Notes under the pieces: generated by a model
What the model saw: the letters and a program-made list of their open reading frames with translations, nothing else
Databases searched by the model: none
What the model was told of the DNA's origin: nothing
Assembly (NCBI GenBank): GCA_029934065.1
Contig: JAOZMX010000005.1
Location: forward strand, 1-40,567
Length of the DNA stretch: 40,567 nucleotides
Reading direction: 5' to 3'
Origin: Bacteroidales bacterium
GTDB taxonomy: Bacteria; Bacteroidota; Bacteroidia; Bacteroidales; 4484-276
Part shown: positions 1 to 6,258 of the stretch, one piece after another
Position numbering within the stretch: position 1 is the first letter of the stretch
Layout: every line of letters starts with the position of its first letter
Program-made: the position numbers and the translations under genes

Positions 1-478
1 GGGTAACGGTATTTCCCGTTTTTGTGATCGTCTGCAATTCGTTGGTAGGGTCGGCATCGGCATCATCCTTGTTTTCCACATTTTCAGCATACAAAGCATA
101 AGGCACACTGAACAATTGCGCCGTTCCCATGGAAGTATAGTTGCTCCCCCCTGTCGGATCAATTTCAATCTCCAGATATTTGAGTCCGTTGCCCCAATCG
201 ATGGTTGAAAAATCTCCGGTAACGGGAGTTCCGTTGCCTATTTCCAGATTGATCAGCCCCATTTGATTTGTGGTTGCCGCATGCGTTTCCTTGTAAACCA
301 CAGTGCCACCCGCAGTTGCATTGTGAATGCTAATGCGAATGCTCACATTTTGATTCGGTAAAACATTTCCGTTTGCATCCCTCACCACCGACTGGTATTT
401 GAAAGCTTGTGGCGACTGGGCAACAATGGTCAAAGCCATTGCTACGACCATCAAAAGTGTCATCGTAATTCTTTTCAT
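1..478 (-). CDS. Secreted protein, N-terminal part only (runs off window edge)
   Basis: An open frame runs from ATG at 478 to the window edge, giving 159 residues without a stop. It begins with a signal peptide (MKRITMTLLMVVAMALTIVAQ) cut after the Ala-Gln region. The mature start contains FKYQSVVRDANGNVL, then RISIHN, YKETHAATTNQMGLINLEIG, TIDWGNGLKYLEIEID and FSVPYALYAENV. From memory this block is a common N-terminal module of Bacteroidetes surface proteins, whose C-terminal parts vary (tail-fibre-like, collagen-like, or with a sorting domain). That variable part is outside the window, so the function is unknown. The gene points away from the phosphate operon, from which 168 AT-rich bases separate it. 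Export is near certain; identity beyond that is open. Confidence 0.8.
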   Translation of the reverse strand, partial: MKRITMTLLMVVAMALTIVAQSPQAFKYQSVVRDANGNVLPNQNVSIRISIHNATAGGTVVYKETHAATTNQMGLINLEIGNGTPVTGDFSTIDWGNGLKYLEIEIDPTGGSNYTSMGTAQLFSVPYALYAENVENKDDADADPTNELQTITKTGNTVT

Positions 479-562
479 TTTTTTGGATTTTTATTATGTT
501 AATGAACTTAATTAATTCATTTACTGATGCAACCACCTAATAATGAACCTAAATCAGCGACA

Positions 563-570
563 CAAATATA
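563..570 (-). promoter_or_regulatory. Putative -7 box (TATATTTG) for the gene at 1-478
   Basis: Read on the minus strand this is TATATTTG, a full match to the Bacteroidetes -7 consensus TAnnTTTG. It lies about 85 bases before the start codon at 478, implying a leader of roughly 75-80 bases. No clear -33 TTTG at 19-21 bases upstream was found, so the call is tentative. Confidence 0.35.
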
Positions 571-646
571 AAAATTTATTGAAAACAATAAAAAGAACAT
601 TTTTGTTAAAAAAAGTTTTTAACCTGCACCGAAAATATAATCGCTT

Positions 647-2491
647 TTACAATTCCCTGATAAAATCGCTCAGGTTTACCCTGGGTGATACTTTCAGTTT
701 TTTGCGCAGGCGATAGCGGTTCATCTCCACACTTTTAGGCGAAATATTGAGAATGGAAGCAATTTCCTTGGAGGAAAGATTCAGCCGCAACAACACGGCA
801 AGCCGCTTTTCATTTTCCGTAATGGACGGGTATTTTTCAGACAACTTTCTCAAAAAATTGCTGTTTTGCTCGGTAAGATGCATCTGGAATTTTTCCCGGT
901 CGCGGTCAATGGAAAGGTTTTGGCTGATCATCAGCAAAAGTTTGGTGAATGCCTCTCTGGCCTCCGGATCTTTTACCGTTGACTTGACGCCGATGATCTC
1001 TTTTTTGAGCTTGCTCAAAAATTCATTTTTCTGAATGATGTTCATGGCCATGGTCACCATTTCGTTTTGCCGGAATTTCAGCTCCTTGTTCAGATCGTGC
1101 TGTTTTGTTTCGTACGCTTTCAGTGTGTTTTCCAGATGCTCGATCTTCAACAAATATTTCTTCTCCAGTTCATCAATGTTTCTGTGGTGTTTTACCTTTT
1201 GTTTCTGCAATTTGATGGTAAGCCAGATGACGAGAAGTAACAGCAAAAACGAGAGTGAGGCAAAGACAATCATGGGGAGTTCATCGGAGCATTTTTCCGT
1301 TAACATATTTTTCGTTTCAGGGATGAGTGTGCTGTCGGCCACCGGAACCGGTTTGCTTTCCATGAACGATACGGTGTCGTTTTCAAGCATTTGCGCAGCC
1401 ATGCTGTCCACTTTTTGCACATATTCGGCGATGGGACCCGGCGGCTGCGACGAGCCCACATCTTTTTTAAACACGTTGTTGACAAAGAAGAGCAAAAAGA
1501 AACTTACAAGTCCCGCAACGATAGGTGTGGCAATCCACCCGAGACTGATACTGCCGAGAATGTTGAATTTGATTTCTTTTCCTCCCTTGTAAAGACCAAT
1601 GCCGATGATGGCTCCGATGACCACCTGCGAGCTGGAAACCGGCACCAGCGGAATGGCCGGCAACCCGATGGATTGTACAGCGTCGGATAGCGCTTGTGAA
1701 GAAAAGATAAAAAGTACCAGCGCCTGTGCGAGCACCACCACGATGGCCGCTTCAGGGGTCAGCGGCATCAGTGTGTTGCCAACGGTTTCCATCACTCGTT
1801 TCGAATAGGTGATTACACCAACGGCAATGGCCACACCGCCGATAAAAAACAGTTGTTGGGTGCTGTCGAAGGCAACAAAACCAAGATCGATCAAAGGAAG
1901 GTTGATGGCTCCCGTAAAGACACCCATTACATTGGCAATGTTGTTGGCTCCGAGGCTGTAAGCACCGAAAGCTCCCACTACAACCAGCCCGAGCCTGATG
2001 TAGGCATCCCTGTAAAGCAGATGCAGCGAGATGTTTTTCAAAACCTTTTTCACCAGCATGAACAGCAAAACCGCAAAAAGTCCGCCGAGCAACGGACCGG
2101 ATATCCAGGTAGTAACGATTTTGGTCAGTGTGGATATGTCGGTGGGATTGTCGGTATAGAAATTCCACCCGATGATGGCCCCGACAATGGCTTGTGAAGT
2201 TGAAACGGGAAGTTTCAGCCGGGTCATCCAGTACACCGACAGCGCTGCAGCCAACGCAACCGTAAAAGCCGCCGCCAGTGTGGAGACGTTCCCCAGTTTT
2301 CCTAAAGTTTCGCTGGCTCCGGCACCCTGTACCACAGCGCCGATAATCACAAAAATGCTGGCGATGATTGCAGCTTTTTTGAACCTGACCATGCGCGAGC
2401 CCACTGCCGTCCCGAAAACATTGGCAGCATCGTTGGCCCCAAGCGACCAACCCAAAAACAACCCACTGGACAGATAAAAAAGTACAATCAT
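647..2491 (-). CDS. pit: Pit-family phosphate permease fused to a membrane-anchored LuxR-type DNA-binding domain
   Basis: The 614-residue protein has two parts. Residues 1-340 are a PHO4/Pit inorganic phosphate permease: the duplicated signature appears as LGANDAANVFGTAVGSR (18-33) and LGANNIANVMGVFTGA (180-195), with the paired motifs PVSTSQAIVGAIIG and PVSSSQVVIGAIIG. Residues 341-404 form a hydrophilic linker, 405-427 an additional membrane helix (VFASLSFLLLLLVIWLTIKL), and 428-500 a charged coiled coil. Residues 555-614 are a LuxR/GerE helix-turn-helix (ITENEKRLAVLLRLNLSSKE, then IASILNISPKSVEMNRYRLR). The C-terminal half matches the layout of Bacteroidetes TPR-TM-coiled-coil-LuxR regulators, with the permease in place of the TPR sensor. 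Normal Pit proteins end after the permease. The start ATG overlaps the stop of the DUF47 gene by 4 nt (ATGA). A phosphate-sensing transporter-regulator is inferred, not shown. Confidence 0.9.
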   Translation of the reverse strand: MIVLFYLSSGLFLGWSLGANDAANVFGTAVGSRMVRFKKAAIIASIFVIIGAVVQGAGASETLGKLGNVSTLAAAFTVALAAALSVYWMTRLKLPVSTSQAIVGAIIGWNFYTDNPTDISTLTKIVTTWISGPLLGGLFAVLLFMLVKKVLKNISLHLLYRDAYIRLGLVVVGAFGAYSLGANNIANVMGVFTGAINLPLIDLGFVAFDSTQQLFFIGGVAIAVGVITYSKRVMETVGNTLMPLTPEAAIVVVLAQALVLFIFSSQALSDAVQSIGLPAIPLVPVSSSQVVIGAIIGIGLYKGGKEIKFNILGSISLGWIATPIVAGLVSFFLLFFVNNVFKKDVGSSQPPGPIAEYVQKVDSMAAQMLENDTVSFMESKPVPVADSTLIPETKNMLTEKCSDELPMIVFASLSFLLLLLVIWLTIKLQKQKVKHHRNIDELEKKYLLKIEHLENTLKAYETKQHDLNKELKFRQNEMVTMAMNIIQKNEFLSKLKKEIIGVKSTVKDPEAREAFTKLLLMISQNLSIDRDREKFQMHLTEQNSNFLRKLSEKYPSITENEKRLAVLLRLNLSSKEIASILNISPKSVEMNRYRLRKKLKVSPRVNLSDFIREL

Positions 2492-3138
2492 AAATTGATC
2501 TTCATTGAAATGATGGACAACATATCGGCAAGCGTTTCGGCTTTGTCGGAAATGGTCTCGATGTGCAACGCAAAATAACGCAGGTGGATTTTCTGACTCA
2601 AATGCAGATCATCCATCTGATGAAACAATTTTCTTTTGATGTCCCTTGCAATCCTGTCGGCCTCTTTTTCGTAAAAATAAACCTTTGTCAAAATGTCTTT
2701 TACCTTGAGCGGTTCCCTGAAGAATGTCCTGACGGCGGGAAAAGTCTGTAATGCCGCCTCCACCGAAGCATTGGTAAGCCGGACGTATTCCTGCCGCAAC
2801 GATTCGGGAAAGTAGGGGATCTCCACTTCAAACTGGTAAAGGTTGTCTTTGGAAATGTCGATGATCTCATCAATTTTATCAAGCATCGCCTCGATGTTGC
2901 TGAAATTCTGCGGCAGTATGGAATGCATCAGAAACTTGTCGTCAATCTTTCGCTGCAGCTTATCGGCATTGGCTTCAAGGTATTCAATCCGTTCCAGTTT
3001 CTGGGCAAAACTCTCTTTTTCATCATTCAAATAATTGATCACGCCTTCTTTGAAAACAAGCACACCCTGTTCCACCGTGTTGATAAACTCATCAATGTCA
3101 CTGACGAGCTCTTTTACATTTTTGAAAAGCAACGACAT
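2488..3138 (-). CDS. DUF47 (PhoU-like, TIGR00153-type) protein
   Basis: This 216-residue, almost wholly helical protein matches the DUF47/PhoU-related family by length and pattern. It has long amphipathic helices, with acidic clusters such as EANADKLQRKIDDKF and YFYEKEADRIARDIKRKLF that resemble the metal-binding E/D-rich repeats of PhoU folds. Members are cytosolic, often sit beside Pit permeases and are thought to modulate them. That arrangement is seen here: it is the first gene of a two-gene operon, and its stop overlaps the permease start by 4 nt, suggesting translational coupling. A -7 box lies about 26 bases upstream of the start. The family assignment is strong; the regulatory role is inferred from neighbourhood and family. 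Confidence 0.88.
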   Translation of the reverse strand: MSLLFKNVKELVSDIDEFINTVEQGVLVFKEGVINYLNDEKESFAQKLERIEYLEANADKLQRKIDDKFLMHSILPQNFSNIEAMLDKIDEIIDISKDNLYQFEVEIPYFPESLRQEYVRLTNASVEAALQTFPAVRTFFREPLKVKDILTKVYFYEKEADRIARDIKRKLFHQMDDLHLSQKIHLRYFALHIETISDKAETLADMLSIISMKINL

Positions 3139-3163
3139 AATTTCAGAATTATAGATTTTGCCA

Positions 3164-3171
3164 CAAAGATA
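3164..3171 (-). promoter_or_regulatory. Putative -7 box (TATCTTTG) of the DUF47-pit operon
   Basis: On the minus strand the sequence is TATCTTTG, a full TAnnTTTG match, ending 26 bases before the DUF47 start codon. It implies a very short leader of about 20 bases. No convincing -33 TTTG was found at the usual distance. Confidence 0.45.
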
Positions 3172-3363
3172 ACCGATATTTGGCTACGTGATTGATGTGC
3201 AGTATGTAAGTAAAGGCAAAACCGATTTCTGTAGGGTTGATTGAGAACGTCAACGTACTGAAATCCCATAAGATAGAAACAGGTTGTAGAGGAAAGCAAG
3301 GAAGGTTTATCTGCCGGGCGACAGATTAATCCTCTTTATGTCGTAAAACAATAGAGGCGTGAT

Positions 3364-3396
3364 TTTGCTTCCGGGGTAAGATGTGTTTTAGCTTTG
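3364..3396 (+). promoter_or_regulatory. Putative promoter TTTG-N21-TAGCTTTG; decides the start of the next gene
   Basis: A -33-like TTTG (3364-3367), a 21-base spacer and a full -7 match TAGCTTTG (3389-3396) precede the gene by about 34 bases. A TTG codon at 3394 would extend the reading frame upstream, but it lies inside this -7 box and so would not be in the transcript. This favours ATG 3430 as the true start. Confidence 0.5.
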
Positions 3397-3429
3397 CAGC
3401 GATTCAAAAAAAAAATATTCTGTTCGATT

Positions 3430-4896
3430 ATGGTAAAAGAGTACATCAAAAAACATGATCAGTTGTCGCTGGAGGTCAAACTGGAGTTTCCCGTTGATAA
3501 AAAGTCGGGAAGGCAGGATGACAGCAACATCAATATGTATTTTTTTTTACCGTCGGGACTTGACATCAACAAACACAATTTCACAAAAGGGGATTTTTAC
3601 AATTCCCTGAAAACCAATATCCGGTTAACCACACCATTTTATCGGCTTCAAAACATCATTCCGGGCGATAAGAGCCCTTTCAGAAAACTTGCAAAAAGTA
3701 TCAATACGCTTTTAACATCGCCCGACAACAAAACAGTAGCCGAATACGAAATTCAGATCAAGCGCTTTTGTTCTATTTTCGGAGTTGCATTGCGCCATGC
3801 GGTCAACGAAATCATCCACGTAAAAAATGAGAATGACCGAAAAACGTTGATTGAAAATTTCACCGGGTTAATAAAAGAAATCCGCAACAGCTATCAGGAT
3901 TTGGAAAACAAAATCCATGTTAAGGATACCGAAAACAAGGTTTATTCGATTTTCAGGTCGGCTGATGAATACCAAAGTCTGTTGGTTGAAAAACATATTT
4001 TTGTCCTGGCAACCGAGCTGCAGACAACACCGGATGAAAACCGGGAAGCGCGTGCGTTGCTCGACCGGCTTGTGTTGGATGAAATGGATTACAGAACAAA
4101 AAAAGGGTATCCGTCGGTGGCCAAACCTCACCGTTCCAACGAAGATGTACTGCACCGTTCGAGCAGGTTGAAAAAATTTATCGAGAGCAACCTGTTCCTG
4201 AATACCGACACAAAAAAGGAAGGCGTTCTCGTGGAGCAGGTACTCTTTAGCATCGCTGCCGGCATCGCCATGGTCTTCGCTACGGGGGTGGCATTTGCAT
4301 CGCAACTGATCTACGGCAATCTTACGCTTCCGTTTTTTATCGCATTGGTCATCAGCTATATGTTCAAAGACCGCATCAAAGAACTCATCAGGATCTACCT
4401 CGACAAGAAACATCAAAAAATATTTTACGATTTTAAAACCAAAATTTACAACCAAAAACAAAAAAAGATCGGCTACCTGAAAGAGAGTTTTAATTTTGAA
4501 AAACATCAATTTCTGCCCGAAGAAATATTATCGGCGCGAAATAAAATGCGTGTCACCGAAATTACCGAGGAGTCGTTGGGTGAAAAGATCATTCATTATC
4601 GTACCAAGGTCAGTATTTTGAACCGCCGGAAAGATAGCGGCGATTTTACGGGAATTACCCAGATCCTTCGGTTCAACATTTTGGATTTTACCCGGAAAAT
4701 GGACGACCCCGAAAAAGAGGTTTTCATCCGGACAAGGAAAGGTTTCAAACGTGCGTTTGCCGACCGGGTTTATCATATCAATCTCATATTAACTTATTCG
4801 GACAACCGTAACACCGAACTGAAAACTTATAAATTGATCGTAAACAGAAAGGGGATCAAAAGGATTGAAAAAATAAATCCTCACGAAAAAAATTAA
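3430..4896 (+). CDS. Conserved-looking membrane protein of unknown function, two central TM helices
   Basis: I do not recognise this 488-residue protein. It has a hydrophilic N-terminal half of about 265 residues, rich in charged helices and including RFCSIFGVALRHAVNEIIHV. Two hydrophobic segments follow at roughly 270-290 (FSIAAGIAMVFATGVAFASQ) and 297-314 (LTLPFFIALVISYMF). A basic C-terminal half of about 170 residues ends in strand-like sequence. There is no signal peptide, so both soluble halves are probably cytosolic with a short hairpin in the membrane. No catalytic motif was seen. ATG 3430 is preferred over the in-frame TTG at 3394 because the latter falls in the -7 box. The gene stands alone between the divergent phosphate operon and a T9SS cargo gene. 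Confidence 0.75.
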   Translation: MVKEYIKKHDQLSLEVKLEFPVDKKSGRQDDSNINMYFFLPSGLDINKHNFTKGDFYNSLKTNIRLTTPFYRLQNIIPGDKSPFRKLAKSINTLLTSPDNKTVAEYEIQIKRFCSIFGVALRHAVNEIIHVKNENDRKTLIENFTGLIKEIRNSYQDLENKIHVKDTENKVYSIFRSADEYQSLLVEKHIFVLATELQTTPDENREARALLDRLVLDEMDYRTKKGYPSVAKPHRSNEDVLHRSSRLKKFIESNLFLNTDTKKEGVLVEQVLFSIAAGIAMVFATGVAFASQLIYGNLTLPFFIALVISYMFKDRIKELIRIYLDKKHQKIFYDFKTKIYNQKQKKIGYLKESFNFEKHQFLPEEILSARNKMRVTEITEESLGEKIIHYRTKVSILNRRKDSGDFTGITQILRFNILDFTRKMDDPEKEVFIRTRKGFKRAFADRVYHINLILTYSDNRNTELKTYKLIVNRKGIKRIEKINPHEKN

Positions 4897-4915
4897 AAAA
4901 AATTAAGGCAGGAAA

Positions 4916-4944
4916 TTTGTATATGATTTATTTTCGTACTTTTA
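4916..4944 (+). promoter_or_regulatory. Weak promoter candidate upstream of lamin-tail protein
   Basis: TTTG (4916-4919), 17 bases, then TACTTTTA (4937-4944), which matches TAnnTTTG at all but the last position. The spacer is shorter than usual. The predicted leader to ATG 4993 is about 40 bases and AT-rich. Confidence 0.3.
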
Positions 4945-4992
4945 TTGCAAATAAATTTTTATTTACCATTTACACACTAAAAACAATTACAA

Positions 4993-6258
4993 ATGAAGAA
5001 ACATTACTTTTTAATCAATGGATTATTAACAGTCGCATTGTCGTTATTTATGATGACAACGCAGGTTAACGGCCAACTTTACATCAACGAGTTCATGGCC
5101 AGCAATGATTTTGCCGTTCCCGGCCCGCAGGGTGATTTTCCCGACTGGATTGAGATTTACAATGCAGGAACGGAAGATGTCATGTTGGGAGGATATTATA
5201 TGGCTGACGATCTTACCGACCCCACTGCCATGTATCAGATTCCCGATACTTATCCCGATTCGGTAACGGTTCCAGCCGGCGGTTACATTATTTTTTATGC
5301 CAACAAAGACGAAGAAATCAGTGTATTGAACCTTGACTTCAAATTGAGTGGCAACGGTGAACAAATCGGTTTGTGGGATCCTAATCAACAGTTTCTCGAC
5401 AGCCTAACCTATCCTGCTCAATATGCCGACACATCCTACGGCCGTTATCCCGATGCCACCGACTCATGGTATTTTATGAGCGATTTCACGCCCGGCGCAC
5501 CCAACACCGATCCTAATTCCGGCCCCGGAGAAGTATCATTATTTATCAATGAGTTCATGGCCAGCAACGATTTTGCCGTTCCCGGCCCGCAGGGCGATTT
5601 TCCCGACTGGATTGAGATTTACAACGCAGGCACCGAAGATGTTATGCTGGGCGGTTATTATATGGCAGACGATCTTACCGACCCCACTGCCATGTATCAG
5701 ATTCCCGATACCTATCCCGATTCGGTTACGGTTCCTGCAGGCGGTTACATTTTGTTTTATGCCAACAAGAATGAGGAGACCAGCGTGCTGAATCTTGATT
5801 TCAAATTGAGCGGCGACGGTGAACAGATCGGTTTGTGGAGCCCCGATGAACAATTTCTCGACAGCATCACTTATCCTGCACAATACGCCGACACTTCCTA
5901 CGGCCGTTATCCCGACGCCACCGACGATTGGTTTTACATGGTGGAATATACACCGGGTGCAACCAACATTTATGTGGGCATCGAAGAAAAAGAGATGAAT
6001 GTTGCATCGGTACAGAACTTCCCGAATCCCTTCACAGGAAAAACCACCATCGGCTTCTCACTTACCGGGCCCGATCAGGTAACTATTACCGTATTTGATG
6101 TTACAGGCGCCAAAGTTGCTGTTGTGGCCAACAATCATTTTTCTGCCGGAAACCATAACATCCAGTGGGATGCCTCCGGTCTTGAAGCAGGTTACTATTT
6201 CTACCAGATAAAAACATCAACCGGTACCATTGCACGCAAATTAACGGTGATCAAATAA
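4993..6258 (+). CDS. T9SS-exported protein with two lamin-tail (LTD) domains
   Basis: A 421-residue secreted protein. A signal peptide occupies residues 1-27 (cut near VNG/Q). Two lamin-tail-like domains follow, at about 28-175 and 183-330, each starting INEFMASNDFAVPGPQGDFP and containing WIEIYNAG, the typical beginning of bacterial LTD domains. The C-terminal ~85 residues are a type A T9SS sorting domain: NFPNPFTGKTTIGFSL, then VFDVTGAKV, GLEAGYYFYQIKT and a final RKLTVIK. It should cross the outer membrane through type IX secretion, with the tail removed and the protein surface-anchored or released. LTD modules in bacteria are thought to act in binding or adhesion; the ligand is unknown. 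The two domains are almost the same at DNA level (see repeat entry). A terminator follows. Confidence 0.9.
   Translation: MKKHYFLINGLLTVALSLFMMTTQVNGQLYINEFMASNDFAVPGPQGDFPDWIEIYNAGTEDVMLGGYYMADDLTDPTAMYQIPDTYPDSVTVPAGGYIIFYANKDEEISVLNLDFKLSGNGEQIGLWDPNQQFLDSLTYPAQYADTSYGRYPDATDSWYFMSDFTPGAPNTDPNSGPGEVSLFINEFMASNDFAVPGPQGDFPDWIEIYNAGTEDVMLGGYYMADDLTDPTAMYQIPDTYPDSVTVPAGGYILFYANKNEETSVLNLDFKLSGDGEQIGLWSPDEQFLDSITYPAQYADTSYGRYPDATDDWFYMVEYTPGATNIYVGIEEKEMNVASVQNFPNPFTGKTTIGFSLTGPDQVTITVFDVTGAKVAVVANNHFSAGNHNIQWDASGLEAGYYFYQIKTSTGTIARKLTVIK
5083..5969 (+). repeat. Intragenic tandem duplication, unit 462 bp
   Basis: Copy 1 (about 5083-5507) and copy 2 (about 5545-5969) are offset by exactly 462 bases (154 codons) and align without gaps by eye. 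Roughly nine bases in ten are identical, and most differences are at third codon positions. They encode the two lamin-tail domains; a short linker (DPNSGPGEVSLF) separates them. Confidence 0.92.

Follow-up and report, generated by a model that had tools for sequence, protein, structure and literature searches.

A PiT-type carrier joined to a LuxR-type helix-turn-helix: a candidate membrane-bound regulator of its own operon and a porin in Bacteroidota

A stretch of 40,567 nucleotides from a Bacteroidales bacterium (the window) was analyzed, which encodes a PiT-type carrier continuing in the same reading frame into a LuxR-type helix-turn-helix (HTH) domain. Comparison with related loci makes it rather likely that this protein is a membrane-anchored one-component regulator, with a PiT-type anion carrier as its sensory part and with its own operon and a porin under its control. 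No description of a PiT carrier joined to an HTH domain was found in the openly licensed literature.

Architecture and topology of the fusion protein

The open reading frame at 647-2491 on the minus strand starts with ATG and encodes 614 amino acids in a single frame without internal stop. Pfam searches detected PHO4 at residues 18-330 (E 1.3e-63, 215.6 bits, curated cut-off 33.7) and GerE at residues 570-608 (E 1.2e-7, 31.6 bits, curated cut-off 23.5). An earlier note on this DNA had described a permease, a linker, a membrane helix, a coiled coil and an HTH in one protein; the 614-residue frame and the two domain matches bear this out, and the coordinates given there are correct. The features are as follows.

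2488..3138, minus strand: DUF47 (PhoU_div) protein, 216 aa (PF01865, E 2.5e-17)
1457..2491, minus strand: PiT/PHO4 carrier domain, residues 1-345, ten predicted crossings, N-out and C-out (PHO4 match, Foldseek, loop charges)
1280..1456, minus strand: predicted periplasmic linker, residues 346-404, disordered and fast-evolving (pLDDT < 50 over 349-404; low identity)
1208..1279, minus strand: predicted eleventh membrane helix, residues 405-428 (hydropathy, AlphaFold helix, basic residues after it)
977..1207, minus strand: predicted cytoplasmic coiled-coil helix, residues 429-505 (single helix 405-505 in the AlphaFold model)
650..856, minus strand: LuxR/GerE-type HTH, residues 546-614 (GerE match, near-invariance, lowest dN)

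An AlphaFold model based on an alignment of 35 fusion proteins (mean pLDDT 81) shows the linker disordered over 349-404, the membrane helix and coiled coil as one continuous helix (405-505) and the HTH helices at residues 559-599. Foldseek returned TmPiT (6L85, E 2.6e-13) as the sole significant match in the PDB. The carrier contains the PiT signatures GANDAAN (18-24) and GANNIAN (181-187, with D replaced by N in this second copy), and its PxS motifs read PVSTSQ and PVSSSQ.

The K+R counts of the carrier loops alternate according to the positive-inside rule, giving an outside N-terminus, ten crossings and an outside C-terminus. Extracellular C-terminal ends have been reported from tags for human PiT1 and PiT2 (PMC3126765). 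After the PiT domain, residues 408-426 form the sole strong hydropathy peak; the linker before it has 6 K+R and 11 D+E, and 7 K+R directly follow helix 11, which places the HTH in the cytoplasm. The loop charges thus agree with the earlier argument that the PiT domain ends outside and that one more crossing brings the HTH inside.

The sequence ATGA at 2488-2491 forms a 4-nt overlap of the DUF47 gene with the start of the carrier gene, as had been noted before, and the two genes would be translationally coupled. DUF47 adjoins the carrier gene in essentially all homologous loci. In fusion loci the upstream gene is DUF47 wherever that flank can be read.

Conservation of the fusion

Relatives were scanned with one genome per species, and the best 80 loci were compared (PiT identity 59-90%). 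Among these, about 40 further genome contigs encode PiT, linker, helix, coiled coil and HTH in one frame, showing that the fusion is conserved and not confined to a single genome. A family genome contains a full-length homologue in one open frame with 66% identity. The window comes from a fragmented genome (95% complete, 297 contigs), which could point to an assembly or frameshift artefact; the same joined frame in about 40 independent assemblies rules this out, and an artefact is next to inconceivable.

Unfused relatives are of three kinds: some end without a tail, some in a short membrane tail with a SEEKFWKNIK-like end, and some in a globular tail of 136-153 aa. In the sister clade L056-L064 and related loci, the extra membrane helix is followed by a short, conserved SEEKFWKNIK-like cytoplasmic end, and neither the HTH nor the operator repeats described below were found. 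The 136-153 aa tails follow PiT residue 345 in L068, L090, L099, L100 and L104, whose hosts are Calditrichota, Acidobacteriota and one unclassified MAG; the one tail searched had no Pfam match. On the tree, the HTH label requires 8 gains or losses, and the fusion is retained across several families. The contigs of L038 and L040 are labelled Melioribacteraceae and Chlorobiota, yet fall within the Bacteroidales fusion clade, reflecting either mis-binning or recent transfer.

Selection was compared along the protein with the nearest homologue. The PiT domain is 90% identical, the linker only 29%; the strongest constraint is on the HTH (dN 0.05), with the carrier at dN 0.07. HTH residues 571-599 are invariant except for P585 in 11 close homologues. 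These values bear on the reading that the protein is a Pit permease of the usual kind whose tail, acquired by neutral fusion, has no function. Three lineages (L051, L081 and L093) lack the tail and keep the carrier, which speaks for this reading; however, a dN of the HTH below that of the carrier, a nearly invariant recognition helix and the retention of the tail over large divergence, together with the linked candidate operators, make it very improbable.

A candidate operator repeat accompanies the HTH

Upstream of the DUF47 gene we found a short repeat, CYYTACA (in reverse TGTARRG), which in close relatives occurs on the coding strand only and in a phase of about 11 bp. The window contains these elements:

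3285..3291, minus strand: candidate operator repeat CTCTACA, at -153 from the DUF47 ATG
3230..3236, minus strand: candidate operator repeat CCCTACA, at -98 from the DUF47 ATG
3209..3215, minus strand: weaker candidate repeat CTTTACT, at -77 from the DUF47 ATG, 21 bp from CCCTACA
3164..3171, minus strand: putative Bacteroidota-type -7 promoter element TATCTTTG (matching element in 11/11 close loci)

The last element is one that we take to be the -7 promoter by the Bacteroidota consensus. TAnnTTTG occurs at -31 to -37 from the DUF47 ATG in all 11 close loci, which places the repeats upstream of the promoter core.

The motif was defined on the DNA before DUF47 in close relatives, and counts were made over 300 bp. 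The 11 close fusion operons contain 27 forward and no reverse copies (1.6 expected). In the distant fusions, which lay outside the motif definition, 27 forward and 4 reverse copies were found (2.9 expected), whereas 38 DUF47-PiT operons without HTH contain 2 (2.1 expected). Of the 36 fusion operons, 31 have at least one CYYTACA, compared with 2 of the 38 operons without HTH (Fisher 3e-13), two truncated fusions at contig ends that carry the motif having been moved from the controls to the fusions. TCTACA was the top enriched 6-mer in fusion operons, with 22 occurrences versus none in operons without HTH. Base composition differs between the groups (G 0.11 versus 0.21), but shuffles were made per sequence, and composition cannot produce the strand bias.

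Three sister pairs with support 100 (L050/L051, L073/L093 and L075/L081) differ in the HTH. L050, L073 and L075 have both HTH and motif, and their HTH-less partners L051, L093 and L081 also lack the repeat. Taken together, the sequence comparisons show that the CYYTACA repeat follows the HTH through evolution. The spacings between repeats (21, 33, 55, 77, 98 and 110) are multiples of about 10.95 bp; this phasing has p < 0.0005 over all loci (2000 random placements) and p 0.0085 in the distant group alone, the latter being the fairer value since the close loci have common ancestry.

Two relatives carry natural deletions. In G007, PiT and DUF47 are lost and an intact 233-aa protein remains that consists of membrane helix, coiled coil and HTH; CCCTACA is present at -158 of its gene, and a reversed pair lies before the porin gene. 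G011 has lost large parts of DUF47 and PiT and has an intact HTH; strict repeats were not found before DUF47, and three are present before the porin gene. Both genomes are drafts and the deletions may be assembly errors. As they stand, the two cases connect the repeat with the HTH rather than with the carrier, and the retention of the HTH after loss of all or most of the carrier indicates that, at least there, its function is separable from the carrier.

In the window, the candidate operators lie between the DUF47-PiT operon and a divergent ORF (3430-4896, plus strand) for a 488-aa predicted membrane protein without Pfam or NCBIfam match, which is kept beside the fusion operon in L038, L039, L041, L045, L046, L050 and L169. 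The ORF at 4993-6258 (plus strand) encodes a secreted protein in which two near-identical lamin-tail domains are combined with a type 9 secretion tail, and homologues of it adjoin the fusion operon in many close relatives. Rfam gave no match in window positions 1-5200.

The porin as a second candidate target

In both the close and the distant group, the gene after the fusion gene, where present, encodes a phosphate-selective porin O/P (PF07396, E 6e-34 and 4e-46). In the loci examined, it is followed by the gene for a lamin-tail lipoprotein and variably by those for an SdiA-regulated/phytase-like propeller and a CYTH protein. The porin gene of distant fusions usually starts within tens of bases of the fusion gene, which fits a single operon. 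A separate upstream region precedes the porin gene in close relatives and holds the reversed repeat TGTAGGG-n4-TGTAGWG. Reversed repeats were found at about -90 to -117 of the porin gene, with 15 sites in 9/9 aligned loci (0.5 expected), and form the sole well-conserved block in a region that otherwise aligns poorly; the repeat is absent upstream of the L040 porin, so that 9/10 close relatives have it overall. These counts come from relatives, the porin gene of the window's genome lying at the edge of contig C55 with its promoter off the contig.

The distribution of sites in whole genomes was determined as well. The strict 11-bp form occurs in G010 and G011 at the porin promoter only and in G007 at the porin promoter and one further place. 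The only strict TGTARRG-n4-TGTARRG in the window's genome is at L201 7798-7815 (G000:C274:15797-15814), near a SusR-like gene; this site is upstream of a gene run with type 9 secretion tails, beside a TPR-LuxR gene. The strict 21-bp pair has three matches in this genome (its own promoter, a kdtA-like frame and another long frame), which is not above the control pattern (1+2 versus 5+0), and we therefore do not extend the regulon past the protein's own operon. Matches to a 38-40 bp spacing pattern lay mostly in repetitive or unexamined sequence.

Together, the repeats at the two promoters and their co-occurrence with the HTH strongly suggest that the HTH reads the repeat and controls both the DUF47-PiT operon and the porin gene. 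The fusion protein would thus probably be an autoregulator with a porin as a further target.

Phosphate regulators in the window's genome and the reader of the repeat

No PstS was found in the window's genome, and PstA gave only a weak ModB-like match. PstA is present at curated level in 9/10 family genomes of other genera, the tenth falling just short. The best PhoB score in the window's genome is 158 bits versus 200-251 in most relatives, and no PhoB-grade response regulator was found there. Pst and a clear PhoB thus seem to be missing from the genome; a second, diverged PHO4 protein (C68) is encoded there. In relatives, a gene for a NarL-type response regulator precedes the pst operon in L155, L157, L160, L162 and L165, and some pst loci have a further conserved gene before it, which may encode the kinase of that regulator.

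Regulators of the OmpR/PhoB type typically bind direct repeats at 11 bp, and dimers of the LuxR type more often bind inverted repeats, which counts against the LuxR-type HTH as the reader. The repeats could instead be sites of a PhoB-like regulator or of a SusR-like TPR-LuxR protein, with the carrier's HTH acting elsewhere or nowhere. The layout of 7+4 bp direct repeats resembles the Pho box, and similar pairs of TGTARRG, 32-33 bp apart, lie between a TPR-LuxR (SusR-like) gene and the next gene in a few cases (L202 1188/1220, L203 1800/1833, L204 2308/2341 and L230 73/106), where they may be operators of the adjoining regulators. However, in the three sister contrasts the repeat tracks the HTH, and it is retained where PiT and DUF47 have been lost. 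Control through a Pho box has no support either, given the low PhoB score in the window's genome and the lack of repeat clusters at the pst promoters of relatives. That the repeat is a general TPR-LuxR operator is no more than a lead: downstream of 39 TPR-LuxR genes 7 repeats were found versus 4.0 expected, which is no enrichment, nor was there any overall when 20 longer LuxR proteins were included. We therefore judge another reader of the repeat to be quite unlikely.

Carrier chemistry and the role of the carrier

At the positions matching D28, E55, D506 and E575 of human PiT2, D21 is kept and V48, N184 and V253 are found instead of the other three (E, D and E/D), which are critical in human PiT2. 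The protein belongs to the PiT/PHO4 family by sequence and fold and lacks three of the acidic residues of Na+-coupled PiT carriers. D21, S97 and S286 are kept throughout the carrier clade, and V48, N184 and V253 are common to its fused and unfused members, so that loss of carrier function as a special event upon fusion can be rejected. The sole NCBIfam match of the carrier was sulfate permease, far under the cut-off. This match and the three substitutions weaken the case for phosphate as the substrate; the DUF47, porin and phytase-like neighbours favour it. The substrate is most likely phosphate, with another anion, or no transport, also possible.

These observations bear on whether the carrier takes part in sensing. 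The HTH could autoregulate through the repeats with the carrier as a mere anchor or passenger, the signal coming from the linker, from DUF47 alone or from the protein level. The variable but retained linker fits this, as do the lack of the usual ion-site acids in the clade and the HTH kept without a working carrier in G007 and G011. However, the carrier is strongly constrained (in the nearest pair, identity is 90% and dN 0.07). Its signature motifs do not vary among 40 fusions, and the fusion has been kept in several families. An anchor without sensory role is thus unlikely, although it deserves consideration.

Proposed mechanism

In the regulator with a sensory carrier that we favour, the coiled coil would dimerize the HTH, and the dimer would bind the CYYTACA repeats before its own DUF47-PiT operon and before the porin operon. 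The position of the repeats upstream of the -7 element suggests activation, and transcription would be activated at low phosphate. With less certainty, helix 11 would pass the conformation or occupancy of the carrier on to the HTH, and DUF47 would probably take part in this reading on the cytoplasmic side. Phosphate flux or DUF47 binding may be the signal, as the earlier note had suggested. The uptake capacity of both membranes would then follow the phosphate supply, and in the window's genome the system may stand in for Pst/PhoBR. We give slightly less than an even chance to a tentative proposal in which the inner-membrane carrier, through its state, would govern transcription directly, both of the operon that encodes it and of an outer-membrane phosphate porin, with no kinase or response regulator in between, and in which this would replace Pst/PhoBR in some genomes.

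Comparison with known systems

The C-terminal half of the fusion protein had been likened to the TPR-TM-coiled-coil-LuxR regulators of Bacteroidota, and it is indeed homologous to such proteins from the same bacterial family (28-41% identity). Two such homologues with TPR repeats were identified, one of which matches the SusR and BT3442 models. Membrane helix, coiled coil and LuxR-type HTH are homologous to those of SusR-like regulators (NF058541, NF053779), but the ten-helix PiT carrier stands in place of their N-terminal TPR sensor. Pfam detected no TPR in the fusion protein, and NF053779 scored 24.9 bits versus 940; lacking the TPR sensor, the protein is not a SusR-family member. With TmPiT (6L85) and the Pit-DUF47 operons it has fold, family match and DUF47 partner in common, and it adds the membrane helix, the coiled coil and the HTH.

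CadC and ToxR are membrane-bound one-component regulators with a winged-helix DNA-binding domain and a soluble periplasmic sensor, and CadC uses a separate carrier, LysP. They likewise combine a cytoplasmic DNA-binding domain, a membrane helix and an extracytoplasmic sensor in one protein; they differ in the winged helix, the reversed domain order and the soluble nature of the sensor.

How phosphate is sensed through a transporter is a long-standing question for PhoU/Pst, where several proteins take part. The PhoR/PhoB/PhoU-Pst system resembles the one proposed here in transporter-linked control of phosphate genes, a PhoU-like partner and direct repeats at about 11 bp, whereas the fusion system has neither kinase nor response regulator and a different repeat sequence. 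With carrier, membrane signal path and DNA-binding output apparently in one polypeptide, and with a predicted DNA site, the question becomes testable. For uncultured Bacteroidota without Pst/PhoB, the fusion would offer a plausible means of phosphate control, and it would tie phosphate entry at the inner membrane to that at the outer membrane.

In CbrA and other SLC5-histidine kinase transceptors of Pseudomonas, a carrier and a signalling output are combined in one polypeptide (PMC7096432, PMC13022988). The fusion protein likewise joins a secondary carrier and a signalling domain, here an HTH, for which a link to gene expression is proposed; on domain content we class it as a form of transceptor, or membrane-bound one-component regulator. 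CbrA belongs to another carrier family and acts by a kinase through a response regulator, whereas the DNA-binding domain is here attached to the carrier itself. By analogy, we propose that the fusion protein works like a transceptor of the CbrA kind with the output module of SusR-like regulators, so that a single molecule may combine nutrient uptake with gene control in many Bacteroidota.
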